Assembly: GCA_020160935.1 (NCBI GenBank)
Contig: JAIUPL010000007.1
Location: 124,001 to 188,000 of the forward strand
Length of the DNA stretch: 64,000 nucleotides
Source of the DNA: Bacteroidota bacterium
Lineage (GTDB): Bacteria; Bacteroidota; Bacteroidia; Chitinophagales; Saprospiraceae
Direction: 5' to 3'
The notes beneath the pieces were generated by a model. It was not told where the DNA came from, did not search any database, and saw only the letters and a program-made list of their open reading frames with translations. Every line of letters begins with the position of its first letter. The first letter of the stretch is position 1. Shown here one piece after another: positions 48,590 through 53,196 of the stretch. The position numbers and the translations under genes are program-made.

Positions 48590-48632
48590 GGCCGGAGTTT
48601 CGTTCTCCAACAAGGAAAGCGAGGCTCCGGCC
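48590..48632 (+). terminator. Intergenic hairpin before the PorV/PorQ gene
   Basis: GGCCGGAGTTTCG at 48590-48602 pairs with CGAGGCTCCGGCC at 48620-48632, allowing two G-T type pairs. It is followed by CCTTCTTC, not a clean T run. Confidence 0.5.
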
Positions 48633-48690
48633 CCTTCTTCATTTCACTTTCCGGAATTGTTTTCCGGATTTATTTCATTTCCGAATCAAT

Positions 48691-49737
48691 ATGAAATATA
48701 CATACTCACTATTACTGTGTTTTTGTCTGCTGGCTTCAGGAGCAATGATGGCAGGCAACCCGGACCGGCAAGGGGAGGCAGGCGCCAACCAATTATTGCT
48801 CAACCCATGGGCGCGTAGCGCAGGCCTGCACTCGCTGAATACCTCTAGCGTATCGGGCGCAGAAGCCATGTACCTGAATGTGGCAGGGCTTTCCCGCCTC
48901 AAAAAAACGCAGATTCAACTCAGCCATGCGCGTTACATCGCCGATATCAATCTGAATGCACTCTCTTTCGGACAGCATATCGGTTCGGGCGGCGGCGTAT
49001 TTGGTATCTCTTTGGTGTCGATGGATTTGGGCGACTTTTTCTCCACCAGCGAGGACATTCCTGGCGGTACCGGGGCCACGTTCAGCCCTTCTTATTTTAA
49101 CATGGGATTGTCTTATTCTCACTTGTTTGTCAACAAGGTGTCAGTAGGCGTTACTTTCAAATTCGTCAATGAATCGATCAGCAACGTAGGCGCACGCGCT
49201 ATGGCGCTCGATGCCGGCGTTCAGTACGTAACAGGCGAAAATGACAATTTCAAATTCGGCATCTCGCTGCGGAACATCGGTACCAAAATGAAATACACGG
49301 GTGAAGGTTTGTCGACTCCGCGTCCGAATCCGAACCAGACCTGGGAATTCCCGATTACCTACTACCAGCGCTCTGCCGAATACGAACTGCCCTCACAACT
49401 TAATATCGGCTTCTCGAACGACTGGTTGCTGGGTAAATCCAACAGGCTCTCTCTGATCGGTAACTTTACCTCCAACGCGTTTTCGCGCGACCAGGTAGGC
49501 GGCGGCCTCGAACTCACCGTTGGCCAGAATTTCGGCCTGCGCGTTGCTTACAAAACGGAATTGGGAACAGCCATCGGTAGCACCGAAGCCACCCTCGATA
49601 ACGGTGTGAGCGCGGGCTTTACAGCCTCCATCCCGTTCAAAAAAGGTTCCGACAGCCGTCTGACGCTTGATTACTCCTACCGTGCCACTGCTGTGTACAA
49701 TGGTATTCATGGGGTAGGGCTGCGCATCGATTTGTAG
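48691..49737 (+). CDS. PorV/PorQ family outer-membrane protein
   Basis: Outer-membrane beta-barrel protein of 348 residues with signal peptide MKYTYSLLLCFCLLASGAMMAG. The family start is visible: GANQLLLNPWARSAGLHSLNTSSVSGAEAMYLNVAGLSRLKKTQIQLSHARYI. Later segments include GVTFKFVNESISNVGARAMALDAGVQY. PorV family barrels shuttle type IX secretion substrates from the translocon. A paralogue next to a large exported protein and a TonB receptor suggests a dedicated partner for that protein. The start at 48691 begins the signal peptide. Confidence 0.9.
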   Translation: MKYTYSLLLCFCLLASGAMMAGNPDRQGEAGANQLLLNPWARSAGLHSLNTSSVSGAEAMYLNVAGLSRLKKTQIQLSHARYIADINLNALSFGQHIGSGGGVFGISLVSMDLGDFFSTSEDIPGGTGATFSPSYFNMGLSYSHLFVNKVSVGVTFKFVNESISNVGARAMALDAGVQYVTGENDNFKFGISLRNIGTKMKYTGEGLSTPRPNPNQTWEFPITYYQRSAEYELPSQLNIGFSNDWLLGKSNRLSLIGNFTSNAFSRDQVGGGLELTVGQNFGLRVAYKTELGTAIGSTEATLDNGVSAGFTASIPFKKGSDSRLTLDYSYRATAVYNGIHGVGLRIDL

Positions 49738-49754
49738 AAAAAAAAGAGGCAGTC

Positions 49755-49785
49755 TTTCATTGCATTGAAAATTGCCGTAACTTTG
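49755..49785 (+). promoter_or_regulatory. Candidate greA promoter
   Basis: TTTC at 49755-49758, 19-base spacer, exact -7 box TAACTTTG at 49778-49785. A start near 49792 would make a ~155-base leader that contains both hairpins below. Confidence 0.5.
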
Positions 49786-49799
49786 CAGCACGATTTTAC

Positions 49800-49844
49800 A
49801 ACAGGAACGTTTCTATCTGCCCGATAGGAACGTTCCTGTTTTTT
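49800..49844 (+). terminator. Terminator-like hairpin 1 in the greA leader
   Basis: ACAGGAACG at 49801-49809 pairs with CGTTCCTGT at 49831-49839, followed by a T run to 49844. It could end the upstream PorV transcript or attenuate greA. Confidence 0.8.
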
Positions 49845-49865
49845 AGTCTGTATGGAAAAAAACGC

Positions 49866-49903
49866 AAGGTTTATCCTCCTGCATGGACGGATAAGCCTTT
49901 TTT
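49866..49903 (+). terminator. Terminator-like hairpin 2 in the greA leader
   Basis: AAGGTTTATCC at 49866-49876 pairs with GGATAAGCCTT at 49889-49899 (one G-T pair), with T6-7 to 49903, 45 bases before the greA ATG. Confidence 0.75.
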
Positions 49904-49947
49904 AACCTAACCAAAGAGGATTTTTTTAACCTTTAATACCGTTGAAT

Positions 49948-50424
49948 ATGGCAAACTACACCTATCTGACACAAACCGGCTACGACCGGCTACGGTCCGA
50001 ACTGGATGAACTGAAAACTACTGGTCGTCAGGAAGCAGCCCGTGCTATTGCCGAAGCACGTTCGCAAGGCGATTTGTCGGAAAATGCCGAATACGATGCC
50101 GCAAAAGATGCACAGGGGCTGTTGGAATTCAAAATCAATGAACTGGAAACCATTCTCGCCAATGCGCGTATCATAGACGAATCGCAACTCGATAGTTCCA
50201 AAGTGGCGATCCTTTCCAATGTGACCATCAAAAACCTGAAAACAGGAAAGGAAATGACCTACAAACTCGTGTCTGAAACTGAAGCAGATGCGAAACAAAT
50301 GCGCATTTCCGTTACCTCTCCCATCGGACAGGGCCTGCTGGGCAAAACCGTAGGCGAAATCGCCAAAGTGGCGACACCCGCCGGCGCCATGGAGTTTGAA
50401 GTAATGGGAATATCCGTCGGATAG
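49948..50424 (+). CDS. greA: Transcription elongation factor GreA
   Basis: Cytoplasmic factor of 158 residues that rescues backtracked RNA polymerase by stimulating transcript cleavage. The N-terminal coiled coil carries YLTQTGYDRLRSELDELKTTGRQEAARAIAEARSQGDLSENAEYDAAKD, with the acidic tip D-x-x-E-N-A-E-Y. The C-terminal FKBP-like domain has VTIKNLKTGKEMTYKLVSETEAD and SPIGQGLLGKTVGE. ATG 49948 is the family start; a TTG two codons earlier is unlikely. The leader holds two terminator-like hairpins, suggesting premature termination control. Confidence 0.96.
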   Translation: MANYTYLTQTGYDRLRSELDELKTTGRQEAARAIAEARSQGDLSENAEYDAAKDAQGLLEFKINELETILANARIIDESQLDSSKVAILSNVTIKNLKTGKEMTYKLVSETEADAKQMRISVTSPIGQGLLGKTVGEIAKVATPAGAMEFEVMGISVG

Positions 50425-50426
50425 TA

Positions 50427-50639
50427 GTTATCAGTTATCAGTTATTGGTTATCAGGGGTGGTAGGGGTACATTTGTGCAAGTTTTTTCGCGGCTCTAAAA
50501 GGCGTGTTGAACATTTACACAAATGTACCCTTACTACCCCTGATCATTTATCTTGCTACACGACCACAGATGTCCGGTATAATGAACAAATGTACCCCCA
50601 CCACCCTGATAACGAATAACTAATAACTGATAACCAATT
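50427..50639. repeat. Three-armed composite element, GTTATCA/GTTATTG heptamers
   Basis: Left arm 50427-50482: GTTATCA tandem, then CAGGGGTGGTAGGGGTACATTTGTG. Middle segment about 50511-50548 and right segment about 50588-50639 are both complementary to it in part (ACAAATGTACCC, CTACCCCTGAT / CCACCCTGATAAC). The right arm ends at the next ATG. Confidence 0.85.
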
Positions 50640-51038
50640 ATGTCAAGCATTTTCACCCGCATCGTAAACGGAGAGATTCCGTGCCATAAAATTGCCGAAA
50701 CCGATGATTATCTGGCGTTTCTGGATGTGCGCCCGCAAGCCAAGGGGCATACGTTGTGCATCACCAAACAGGAAATCGACTATATTTTCGATGTAGAGGA
50801 TGACCTGTACACGGGTCTGTGGCTTTTTGCCAAAAAAGTGGCGCATGCGGTAAAAAAAGCCGTCCCCTGCAAACGGGTAGCCGTGGTGGTGATCGGCGAC
50901 GAAGTGCGCCATACGCACGTACACCTGATTCCTTTTAATAGCCTGGAAGATGTGCGTTTTCAGGGCTCTGCCAAAGTGGATATGTCGGCAGAGGAATTGA
51001 AAGAACTGGCGGCGAGTATTGCCGGGTACTTTCAGTAA
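50640..51038 (+). CDS. HIT-family hydrolase
   Basis: A 132-residue histidine-triad protein of the Hint/HinT branch. The triad His91-Thr-His93-Val-His95 (RHTHVHLIP) provides the nucleophile for cleavage of nucleoside phosphoramidates or related nucleotide adducts. The N-terminal block IFTRIVNGEIPCHKIAETDDYLAFLDVRPQAKGHTLCI is typical. Substrate in the cell unknown. The ATG is directly at the end of a repeat arm, and the next repeat starts within 5 bases of the stop. Confidence 0.94.
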   Translation: MSSIFTRIVNGEIPCHKIAETDDYLAFLDVRPQAKGHTLCITKQEIDYIFDVEDDLYTGLWLFAKKVAHAVKKAVPCKRVAVVVIGDEVRHTHVHLIPFNSLEDVRFQGSAKVDMSAEELKELAASIAGYFQ

Positions 51039-51042
51039 GTGT

Positions 51043-51197
51043 TTTTGTGTTTTGGTGTTTTGGTGGGCTTCGCTCTTGGTGTTGGGAGGTAATTTGGCCG
51101 TGAAATCGGACAAAGTTTATTGAAAAGTCTCTGATTTCACGGCCAAATTACCTCCCAACACCAAGAGCGAAGCCCACCAAAACACCAAAACACAAAA
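51043..51197. repeat. Composite hairpin element, GTGTTTTG arms (65-bp perfect stem)
   Basis: Arms 51043-51107 and 51133-51197 are perfectly complementary over 65 nt around a 25-nt loop. Outer part is GTGTTTTG octamers, then GGGCTTCGCTCTTGGTGTTG, then GGAGGTAATTTGGCCGTG. It is between the convergent HIT and E1 genes. It is the longest perfect stem seen in the window. Confidence 0.98.
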
Positions 51198-51204
51198 CCC
51201 CCCC

Positions 51205-53196
51205 CTAATACTTCCTCAACTTCTCCAACTGCTCCTTCATCCGTTCCAGCGGAAAAAAGTTCTGTTCCAGCGGAATGGCAAAGGGCACCGGCGTATCGAG
51301 GCTGGCAGCCCGGAGTACCGGCGCATCGAGGTATTCGAACAAGTTTTCGGAAATCCAGGCGGCAATTTCACCGCCGATACCGCCAAACAGCGTGTCTTCA
51401 TGGAGAATCAGCACGCGATTTGTTTTTTTCACAGAATGGGTAATGGCTTCATAATCAAGTGGCACCAGCGAGCGCAGGTCGACTATGTCGGCATCCAGGC
51501 CGAGTGCATCGGCAGCGGCTTCTGCCCAGCGTACGCCCATGCCGTAGGTAAGGATACTTACTTCCGAACCGCTGCGCACCTGGCGGGCTTTCCCGATTTC
51601 TACTGTGTAAAAGCCTTCGGGCACCAGACCGCTTTCCGAGCGATACAGCGCTTTGTGCTCGAAAAACATCACCGGATTGGGGTCTTCAAAAGCCGCCAGC
51701 AGCAGGCCTTTCGCGTCGGCAGGGGTGCTGGGGTACACCACTTTCAGGCCGGGCACGTGTGTAAACCACGCTTCGTTCGACTGTGAGTGAAACGGTCCGG
51801 CGCCCGTACCGCCGCCGGTAGGCATGCGCACCACCATATCGGCCGTTTGGCCCCAGCGCCAGTGCAGTTTGGCGAGGTTGTTCACGATCTGGTTGAAGCC
51901 GCAGGTGACGAAGTCGGCAAACTGCATTTCCACCATACTTTTGATGCCTTTCAGGCTAAGACCCAGCCCGATGCCGACAATGGCGCTTTCACAAAGCGGG
52001 GTGTTGCGCACCCGATCTTTGCCGAATTCCTGCATGAATCCATTGGTAATTTTAAAAACGCCGCCATAATCAGCAATATCCTGGCCCATGAGCACCAGTT
52101 CCGGATGGCGTTTCATGGCCTCGCGCAGTCCGTCGCTGATGGCATCGATAAAACGCAATTCTCGGCCGGGTTGCGCAGGCGCCACGGCGGCCGGCGCCGG
52201 TGCATACACGTCGGCCAGTTCCTCGGCCGTATCGGCCACCGGTTCGGGCTCTGCAAACATGACATCTACGGCTTTCTGGATGTCTTTTTTATACCGTTCT
52301 TTCAAGGTTTTGGCCTGCGCTTCGGTGAGCAGGTTTTCTTCCAGCAGCCATTTCTCGAAATTGTCGATGGGGTCTTTTTGCGCCCAGGCATCCATCAGTT
52401 CCTGCGGCACGTATTTGGTGCCGCTGGCTTCTTCGTGGCCACGCATGCGGAAAGTGACGCATTCGAGCAGGAAGGGCTCGGGATTTTCGCGCATTTCGGC
52501 AGCAATTTTCCGAATGGTGGTAAACACCTCTATAATATTGTTGCCATCGATTTTGGCCGAGCGCATACCATAACCTGCTGCACGATCGACGAGGTCTTTG
52601 CAGGCGTATTGCTCATTGGGGCGGGTAGACAAGCCGTAACCGTTGTTTTCGATCAGGAAAATCACCGGCAGTTTCCACACCGACGCCACATTGAGCGCTT
52701 CGTGGAACTCGCCCTGGCTGGTAGCGCCTTCGCCGGTAAATGCCAGCGACACGCGGCCTTGTTTGCGCAGTTTGTGGGCCATGGCGACGCCGGCTGCCAG
52801 CGAAAGTTGCGGGCCCAGGTGCGAAATCATACCAACAATGGCGTGTTCCATAGCGCCAAAGTGAAAAGATCGGTCGCGGCTTTTAGTGTAGCCGAGTCGT
52901 TTGCCCTGCCACTGGCAAAACAGGCGGTCGAGCGGCATGTCGCGCGCCGTAAACACACCAAGGTTGCGGTGCATGGTAAATATTACTTCGTCGGGCAGCA
53001 GGGCGCAAGCGGCCCCGACGCTGATGGCTTCCTGCCCGATACCGGAAAACCATTTGGAAATACGGCCCTGCCGGAGCAGGTTGAGCATTTTTTCTTCAAT
53101 GAGGCGAGGGCGTACAAGTTGTTCGTACAGGTGCAAAAGGGTGTCTTTTTCCAGACCGGATGCAGTGTAGGGAATAGCAGTTGTGGTGGCGGTCAT
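51205..53196 (-). CDS. 2-oxoacid dehydrogenase E1 component, fused alpha and beta subunits
   Basis: Thiamine-diphosphate enzyme of 663 residues in which the E1 alpha (about 10-315) and beta (about 345-660) chains are one polypeptide, joined by a Pro/Ala-rich linker (VYAPAPAAVAPAQPG). The alpha part has the ThDP/Mg motif GEGATSQGEFHEALNVASVWKLPVIFLIENN and RMRGHEEASG. The beta part has GQDIADYGGVFKITNG, RMPTGGGTGAGPFHSQSNE and DLRSLVPLDYEAI. It decarboxylates a branched-chain 2-oxoacid or pyruvate and acylates lipoyl-E2; no E2 or E3 gene is adjacent. Fused E1 genes of this kind are common in Bacteroidota. Confidence 0.94.
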   Translation of the reverse strand: MTATTTAIPYTASGLEKDTLLHLYEQLVRPRLIEEKMLNLLRQGRISKWFSGIGQEAISVGAACALLPDEVIFTMHRNLGVFTARDMPLDRLFCQWQGKRLGYTKSRDRSFHFGAMEHAIVGMISHLGPQLSLAAGVAMAHKLRKQGRVSLAFTGEGATSQGEFHEALNVASVWKLPVIFLIENNGYGLSTRPNEQYACKDLVDRAAGYGMRSAKIDGNNIIEVFTTIRKIAAEMRENPEPFLLECVTFRMRGHEEASGTKYVPQELMDAWAQKDPIDNFEKWLLEENLLTEAQAKTLKERYKKDIQKAVDVMFAEPEPVADTAEELADVYAPAPAAVAPAQPGRELRFIDAISDGLREAMKRHPELVLMGQDIADYGGVFKITNGFMQEFGKDRVRNTPLCESAIVGIGLGLSLKGIKSMVEMQFADFVTCGFNQIVNNLAKLHWRWGQTADMVVRMPTGGGTGAGPFHSQSNEAWFTHVPGLKVVYPSTPADAKGLLLAAFEDPNPVMFFEHKALYRSESGLVPEGFYTVEIGKARQVRSGSEVSILTYGMGVRWAEAAADALGLDADIVDLRSLVPLDYEAITHSVKKTNRVLILHEDTLFGGIGGEIAAWISENLFEYLDAPVLRAASLDTPVPFAIPLEQNFFPLERMKEQLEKLRKY

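Follow-up and report, generated by a model that had tools for sequence, protein, structure and literature searches.

The greA gene in the window (the whole 64,000-nt stretch that was analysed, part of a 5.84-Mb Saprospiraceae genome of the Bacteroidota, G000:C24) is preceded by a leader in which a promoter of the Bacteroidota type is closely followed by a very stable, terminator-like hairpin, with the hairpin kept before most of the greA genes read across the phylum and the arrangement attached to greA. Judged by its structure and conservation, the hairpin is very probably an attenuating terminator. The leader as a whole is probably a promoter-proximal attenuator of the kind represented by GraL in Escherichia coli, which would release an RNA of ~55 nt and be read by RNA polymerase and associated factors, with feedback by GreA as a probable element of that reading. 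The features of the locus are as follows.

48691..49737, + strand: PorV/PorQ-family gene, the upstream neighbour, given for context (NCBIfam NF033709)
49755..49758, + strand: greA promoter, −33-type element with the sequence TTTC (sequence; the T-T peak of 86 greA loci falls at this distance from the box)
49778..49785, + strand: greA promoter, −7 box with the sequence TAACTTTG (TAnnTTTG, the sigma-A consensus of Bacteroidota; PMC7366714, PMC9723704)
49790..49790, + strand: predicted transcription start, an A, 5 nt 3′ of the −7 box
49800..49840, + strand: hairpin 1, proposed intrinsic terminator (attenuator) (folding, terminator scanner, covariation, covariance model match)
49841..49844, + strand: U-run of hairpin 1 (sequence; T enrichment 3′ of the stem in relatives)
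49866..49899, + strand: hairpin 2, possible second terminator, with a T-run to 49903 (folding, scanner, the 13-sequence alignment A3, pair counts)
49948..50424, + strand: greA, ATG at 49948, encoding a GreA of 158 aa (NCBIfam NF001263/TIGR01462; alignment to E. coli GreA)

The TTTC element is separated by 19 nt from TAACTTTG, which is the sole exact TAnnTTTG on the + strand between 49737 and greA. By itself, the −7 box does not indicate a promoter, since exact boxes are about as frequent in the window as expected (36 versus 35.2). A T-T peak emerged when 86 greA loci were compared (69% and 63%, at 23 and 22 nt 5′ of the box), in the place that TTTC occupies here. A simple scan of the region gave no sigma-70-type promoter on the greA strand. 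The start at A49790 is predicted from the box-to-start distance of another species, Flavobacterium psychrophilum, in which the −7 box is reported to span −12 to −5 (PMC9723704). Given this start, the stem of hairpin 1 begins at +11, with 10 nt preceding it, and the predicted leader RNAs are about 55 nt long for hairpin 1 (ends at ~52–57 nt) and 114 nt for hairpin 2, in agreement with the ~50 and ~110 nt that had been guessed in an earlier, sequence-only reading of this DNA.

Hairpin 1 has an 18-bp stem with AACGTT in each arm, a 5-nt loop and six T from position 49839. Its folding energy of −27.1 kcal/mol (z = −9.5) was equalled in none of 200 shuffles. For hairpin 2, with the stem AGGTTTA/TAAGCCT and a T-run at 49898–49903, the energy was −18.9 kcal/mol (z = −3.9; equalled in 1 of 200 shuffles), and the entire leader gave z = −6.4. 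The terminator scanner scored hairpin 1 at 41.7 and hairpin 2 at 27.7, the top score among 500 leader shuffles being 26.0; a separate simple terminator scan reported hairpin 1 and not hairpin 2, and counted 3 terminator-like sites in the region versus 2.1 in shuffles. A weak form of the promoter-plus-terminator composite occurs 0.95 times per shuffled 64 kb and twice in the real window, the greA instance being the strong one. Since the weak composite also arises by chance, the case rests on hairpin strength, in which hairpin 1 greatly exceeds chance expectation, and on conservation. The sequence-only reading had described a promoter followed by two hairpins with T runs ahead of greA, and folding, shuffling and conservation all bear this out.

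Conservation of hairpin 1 as an RNA structure was assessed in two alignments. Within the genus (34 sequences, 32 of them distinct), 96.7% of the alignment cells pair, and both sides of a pair are changed in 45 cells, compared with 13.2 in shuffled alignments. Less striking is the count of pairs with double-side changes: seven, which 24 of 500 shuffles reached. In a broader alignment of 30 sequences, 22 of them from outside the genus, double-side changes were found at 16 of the 18 pairs (88 cells versus 28.7), a result that none of 500 shuffles reached. The sequences of these alignments (A1 and A2) were selected by a hairpin containing ACG, whereby no genus locus was lost and two loci (L137 and L128) are absent from A2. 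The stem letters vary from order to order (AATCCCGT...ATGGGATT in the Flavobacterium type, AAGACTATGTAGG...CATGTAGTCTTG in the Pedobacter type, AACGGTCTC...GACCGTT in the Cytophagales type and, among others, GCCACTG...CGGTGGC in distant families), while the position before greA is constant.

A covariance model, R1, was built from the 34 genus sequences, the window's own included. In this genome it finds one strong locus, at 49794–49850 (71.6 bits), with the runner-up place at 25.8 bits; the score of 43.8 bits on the opposite strand at the same locus arises because the hairpin is nearly palindromic. A dispersed element was thus rejected. Strong matches (E of 5.2e-8 or better) were obtained in 40 of 42 genus genomes, of which the 34 that supplied the model match by construction. 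In the six genomes unused for the model (G004 and G256–G260), the match lies directly before greA in every case, the greA of G004 being a fragment. The two genomes outside the strong set, G018 and G035, are also those without a greA match; G018 (87% complete) has one weak model match (E = 0.011). Of 11 other Bacteroidota loci, two (L083 and L153) were matched weakly by R1, at 25–26 bits; the remaining nine gave nothing at E of 1 or better, and neither did E. coli. Five weaker R1 places elsewhere whose sequences were read (L235–L239) are other hairpins and do not have the AACGTT core.

Two genus genomes deserve separate mention. G035, although rated 100% complete, has neither a greA match nor a match to the model, which may be a natural loss of greA or an assembly gap. 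On contig C437 of G014 there are two copies of greA, one of them L033, with a leader hairpin before each; this may be a duplication or an assembly repeat.

To describe the arrangement in the wider phylum, two sets of greA loci were scanned: 129 loci (L009–L138 minus L035, a duplicate of L039) that include the window and many of its close relatives, and 89 further loci drawn from 198 genomes, namely the 29 best matches and 60 others spread over the families. The nearest ATG was taken as the presumed start codon. Within 250 nt of the greA ATG, 124/129 and 79/89 loci have a terminator-like hairpin on the same strand; 5 and 10 have none within that distance, one of the former (L029) being scored as a miss with a hairpin beyond 250 nt. 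Of the interpretation given in the sequence-only reading, which holds in part, the proposal that a GraL-like layout recurs in a distant phylum is supported. A TAnnTTTG followed by a terminator within 40 nt was found in 89/129 and 27/89 loci, and TAnnTT[TC]G followed by one within 30 nt in 95/129 and 33/89. The strict TAnnTTTG composite is missing from 40/129 and 62/89 loci, perhaps in part because distant classes have other promoters.

In the intergenic DNA alone, a promoter with a terminator within 30 nt was present at 71 of 109 greA genes (38/57 in the co-directional and 33/52 in the divergent class), 109 being the number of the 129 loci in which greA was recognized for this count. The same layout was found at none of 239 other genes in these loci. 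This control set had been reduced from 247, among which sat seven mis-started greA genes and five antisense ORFs over greA; the only composite among the uncleaned 247, at L013, was one of those mis-assigned entries. As the neighbour controls are partly orthologous, a more varied control was taken from 464 kb of this genome, with genes defined by a simple ORF criterion, and there the layout occurred at 1 of 224 other genes, in a weak form.

The alternative raised by the sequence-only reading is that hairpin 1 serves the upstream gene: it would be the terminator of the PorV/PorQ-family gene, its overlap with the promoter would be accidental, and greA would be transcribed from further downstream. 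The PorV/PorQ-family gene is indeed co-directional, its end lying 63 nt from the stem, and a terminator-like hairpin is also present in 44 of 112 other co-directional intergenic stretches of the same loci. However, the arrangement survives where the upstream gene points away. The divergent class was rechecked, requiring an opposite-strand neighbour of at least 138 aa, and reduced from 52 to 49 loci by dropping L040 and L102, which have a longer co-directional ORF, and L061, which has no neighbour. The layout is kept in 32 and any terminator in 46 of these 49 loci, which are not independent, since ~30 are Flavobacteriales-type with one kind of ~140-aa neighbour; in other divergent stretches of the same loci, a terminator was found in 15 of 127. 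When the neighbour was required to be at least 150 aa and at least twice as long as any co-directional ORF, the terminator was present in 19 of 19 greA loci. In the window itself, the stretch from hairpin 1 to the greA ATG has no further exact −7 box. The explanation as an ordinary 3′ terminator was rejected as the main role and we consider it very unlikely. Because the layout is also seen where the upstream gene is divergent, and is near-absent at other genes, we assign hairpin 1 to greA: on these sequence comparisons it is a greA leader element and not merely the terminator of the upstream gene, though in the window it may additionally block transcripts reading through from the co-directional PorV/PorQ-family gene.

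Three further explanations accept the element and differ in what it does. As a trans-acting small RNA in its own right, the transcript would end ahead of greA by chance, greA being expressed by read-through or incidentally. The invariant sequence core of the stem would suit such an RNA, and E. coli GraL is reported to act in trans as well (PMC6829880); action on other mRNAs, such as nudE, is a mark of the GraL kind. A trans-acting role is compatible with the attenuator and does not exclude it. Independence from greA is, however, unlikely, considering that the element precedes greA in all six held-out genomes and has no strong match in G018 or G035, where greA had no match either, and that an RNA consisting mostly of stem has few free bases for pairing to targets. 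Protection of the greA mRNA from decay by a hairpin at its 5′ end, with no termination, would fit the closeness of the stem to the predicted 5′ end; the T-rich tract directly 3′ of the stem argues against it, as a stabilizer would need no U-run, and we regard this as distinctly unlikely. The conserved element could also be an operator in double-stranded DNA, bound by a repressor through the palindromic AACGTT present in both arms, and the invariance of the AACG core pairs across the 32 distinct genus sequences indeed goes beyond the needs of pairing. Yet the arms covary with each other, and outside the order the stem letters differ while the hairpin, its place and its U-run are for the most part kept, making an operator highly improbable as the explanation.

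Attenuation by hairpin 1 remains the preferred reading, and the geometry of the leaders constrains how it could be controlled. When the nearest box and the strongest terminator were paired, the 5′ tail before the stem had a median of 7 nt and was 15 nt or shorter in 120 of 156 loci, 16–40 nt in 13 and >40 nt in 23; a further 47 greA loci with a terminator have no box upstream within 250 nt, and 15 loci have no terminator. With the box searched only within 30 nt of the terminator, the median tail was 5 nt, and 15 nt or shorter in 120 of 128 loci. For these 128 close-layout loci, the predicted RNAs have a median length of 47 nt (5–95%: 28–61), and for two Flavobacterium-type leaders the predicted released RNA was computed as ~33–34 nt. 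The frequency of T was 0.69–0.87 in the first six positions after the stem in hairpins for which a T-run was required; with no such requirement, 89 of 156 loci had at least five T among the 8 nt after the strongest hairpin, compared with 13.6% of other windows.

With 10 nt before the stem (from the inferred start), the leader in the window does not have the form of a classical attenuator, riboswitch, T-box or leader-peptide system, and no Rfam riboswitch or other Rfam element was found in it. In most loci, the tail is so short that it could scarcely accommodate a leader peptide, an aptamer or an antiterminator. Because so little precedes the stem, leaving hardly any space for a ligand pocket, a leader ribosome or an alternative fold, control would most likely be exerted through polymerase-bound factors.

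Among the closest known systems is GraL of E. coli, in which 19 nt precede the terminator, RNAs of 37–59 nt are released and about one third of transcription reads through; deletion of greA raises a reporter about 3.5-fold, and the effect requires catalytic GreA (PMC6829880). The feedback by GreA was seen in vivo and not in vitro, and its mechanism is described by the authors as unsolved (PMC6829880). The leader in the window resembles GraL in having an intrinsic-terminator-like hairpin near the promoter, in the predicted RNA length (~55 versus 37–59 nt) and in the shortness of the sequence before the stem (~10 versus 19 nt). The catalytic residues are also kept, Asp42 and Glu45 of the window's GreA aligning with Asp41 and Glu44 of E. 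coli. The same scanner detects the E. coli GraL hairpin (11 pairs followed by A and seven T). Both the terminator-like hairpin downstream of a greA promoter and the attachment to greA, seen with divergent neighbours and in the held-out genomes, are as expected for a GraL-type attenuator at the level of sequence. The two differ in stem sequence, in promoter type and in the second hairpin present in part of the genus.

Rfam family RF01769 (Enterobacteria greA leader) likewise precedes greA and matches the E. coli gene at 127.5 bits. With that match as positive control, membership of RF01769 was rejected, since its covariance model had no match in the window at 48600–51300 at E up to 5; it also had none at the gathering score in seven other Bacteroidota greA loci. 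The Bacteroidota greA leader would join the functional kind of GraL outside RF01769. Naville and Gautheret (2010) ranked the greA/rnk family seventh among families with frequent 5′ terminators (PMC2965389), and the word Bacteroidetes is absent from the main text of that paper. The greA/rnk attenuators are described there as having a clear antiterminator in each case, whereas the Bacteroidota stem is mostly too close to the predicted start for one. In the same paper, the leader ahead of the rimP-nusA-infB operon has a terminator hairpin with a conserved stem motif, mostly no visible antiterminator and, in some species, tandem terminators (PMC2965389); it differs in its gene and in its stem motif (GGGc...gCCC). 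No paper on a Bacteroidota greA leader was found among the matches listed for the open-licence part of PubMed Central, though supplementary tables may list one. The main text of PMC9723704 contains 'great' words and no greA; the gene name was not counted in PMC7366714, and is not mentioned in PMC6429828 or PMC2704228 ('greater' and 'greatly' only) or in the main text of PMC2864571.

Hairpin 2 has a narrower distribution, so that the conservation anticipated for both hairpins holds widely for hairpin 1 and in part of the genus for hairpin 2. When no sequence pattern was imposed, 13 of 33 genus loci showed a second terminator-like hairpin, nine of these having GGTTTA; scanning 39 genus loci by pattern gave 13 with a hairpin of the form AGGTTTA...TAARCCT. 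Since the search pattern fixed GGTTTA and TAARCC, the six never-varying pairs of alignment A3 arise partly from selection; the double changes are unaffected by this, and in the stem outside the fixed core they amount to 19 cells versus 8.1 in shuffles. From this evidence, hairpin 2 is real and limited to part of the genus. Of all 218 greA loci, 45 have at least two terminator-like hairpins within 200 nt. The U-run of hairpin 2 is lost in 3 of the 13 loci (L018, L024 and L026), and hairpin 2 may accordingly act as an additional gate, weaker than the first, or do something else. The hairpin itself is kept in those loci (L018:2020–2067, L024:2034–2081 and L026:1396–1443), which hints at a function other than termination.

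The region downstream of greA contains repeats of its own. Nested inverted repeats lie at 50427–50485, 50510–50544 and 50583–50634 (GTTATCAGTTATCAGTTATTGGTTATCAGGG and others), and part of this sequence matches at least 68 further places in the genome, many of them inverted pairs some tens of nt apart; it is a REP/MITE-like interspersed family. Further on, a 68-nt inverted repeat (51043–51110 and 51130–51197) is 99% complementary, with a 19-nt spacer. It is flanked by a HIT-like gene and by a convergent one, the latter presumably related to 2-oxoacid dehydrogenases, and gave sub-threshold microRNA matches in Rfam.

For the greA leader, we infer a sequence of events in which RNA polymerase initiates at about 49790 and, 10 nt on, forms the 18-bp hairpin. 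Some transcripts would then be freed at the U-run as the short RNAs, and greA mRNA would arise only from polymerases that read through. The decision would be read by polymerase-bound factors, of which the likeliest is GreA itself, acting in negative feedback by analogy with E. coli GraL; taken on its own, we give GreA feedback on this attenuator an even chance. In that part of the genus that has it, hairpin 2 may add a further, weaker gate.

That the terminator keeps the same place across the phylum, with another promoter code and other stem letters, suggests that the arrangement is ancient or was reached repeatedly, and that nearness to the promoter may outweigh sequence. More tentatively, and with more doubt than confidence, all Bacteroidota might share one GreA homeostat, in which the geometry is conserved, the letters are swapped from order to order and the state of the polymerase (backtracking, occupancy by GreA) decides the outcome. 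If so, transcription in the Flavobacterium type would end almost as the polymerase leaves the promoter. The many natural variants, single or tandem and shorter or longer, could be used to probe how GreA alters termination. If the terminators are read rightly, Bacteroidota, like E. coli, would limit their own GreA by ending many of its messages early.
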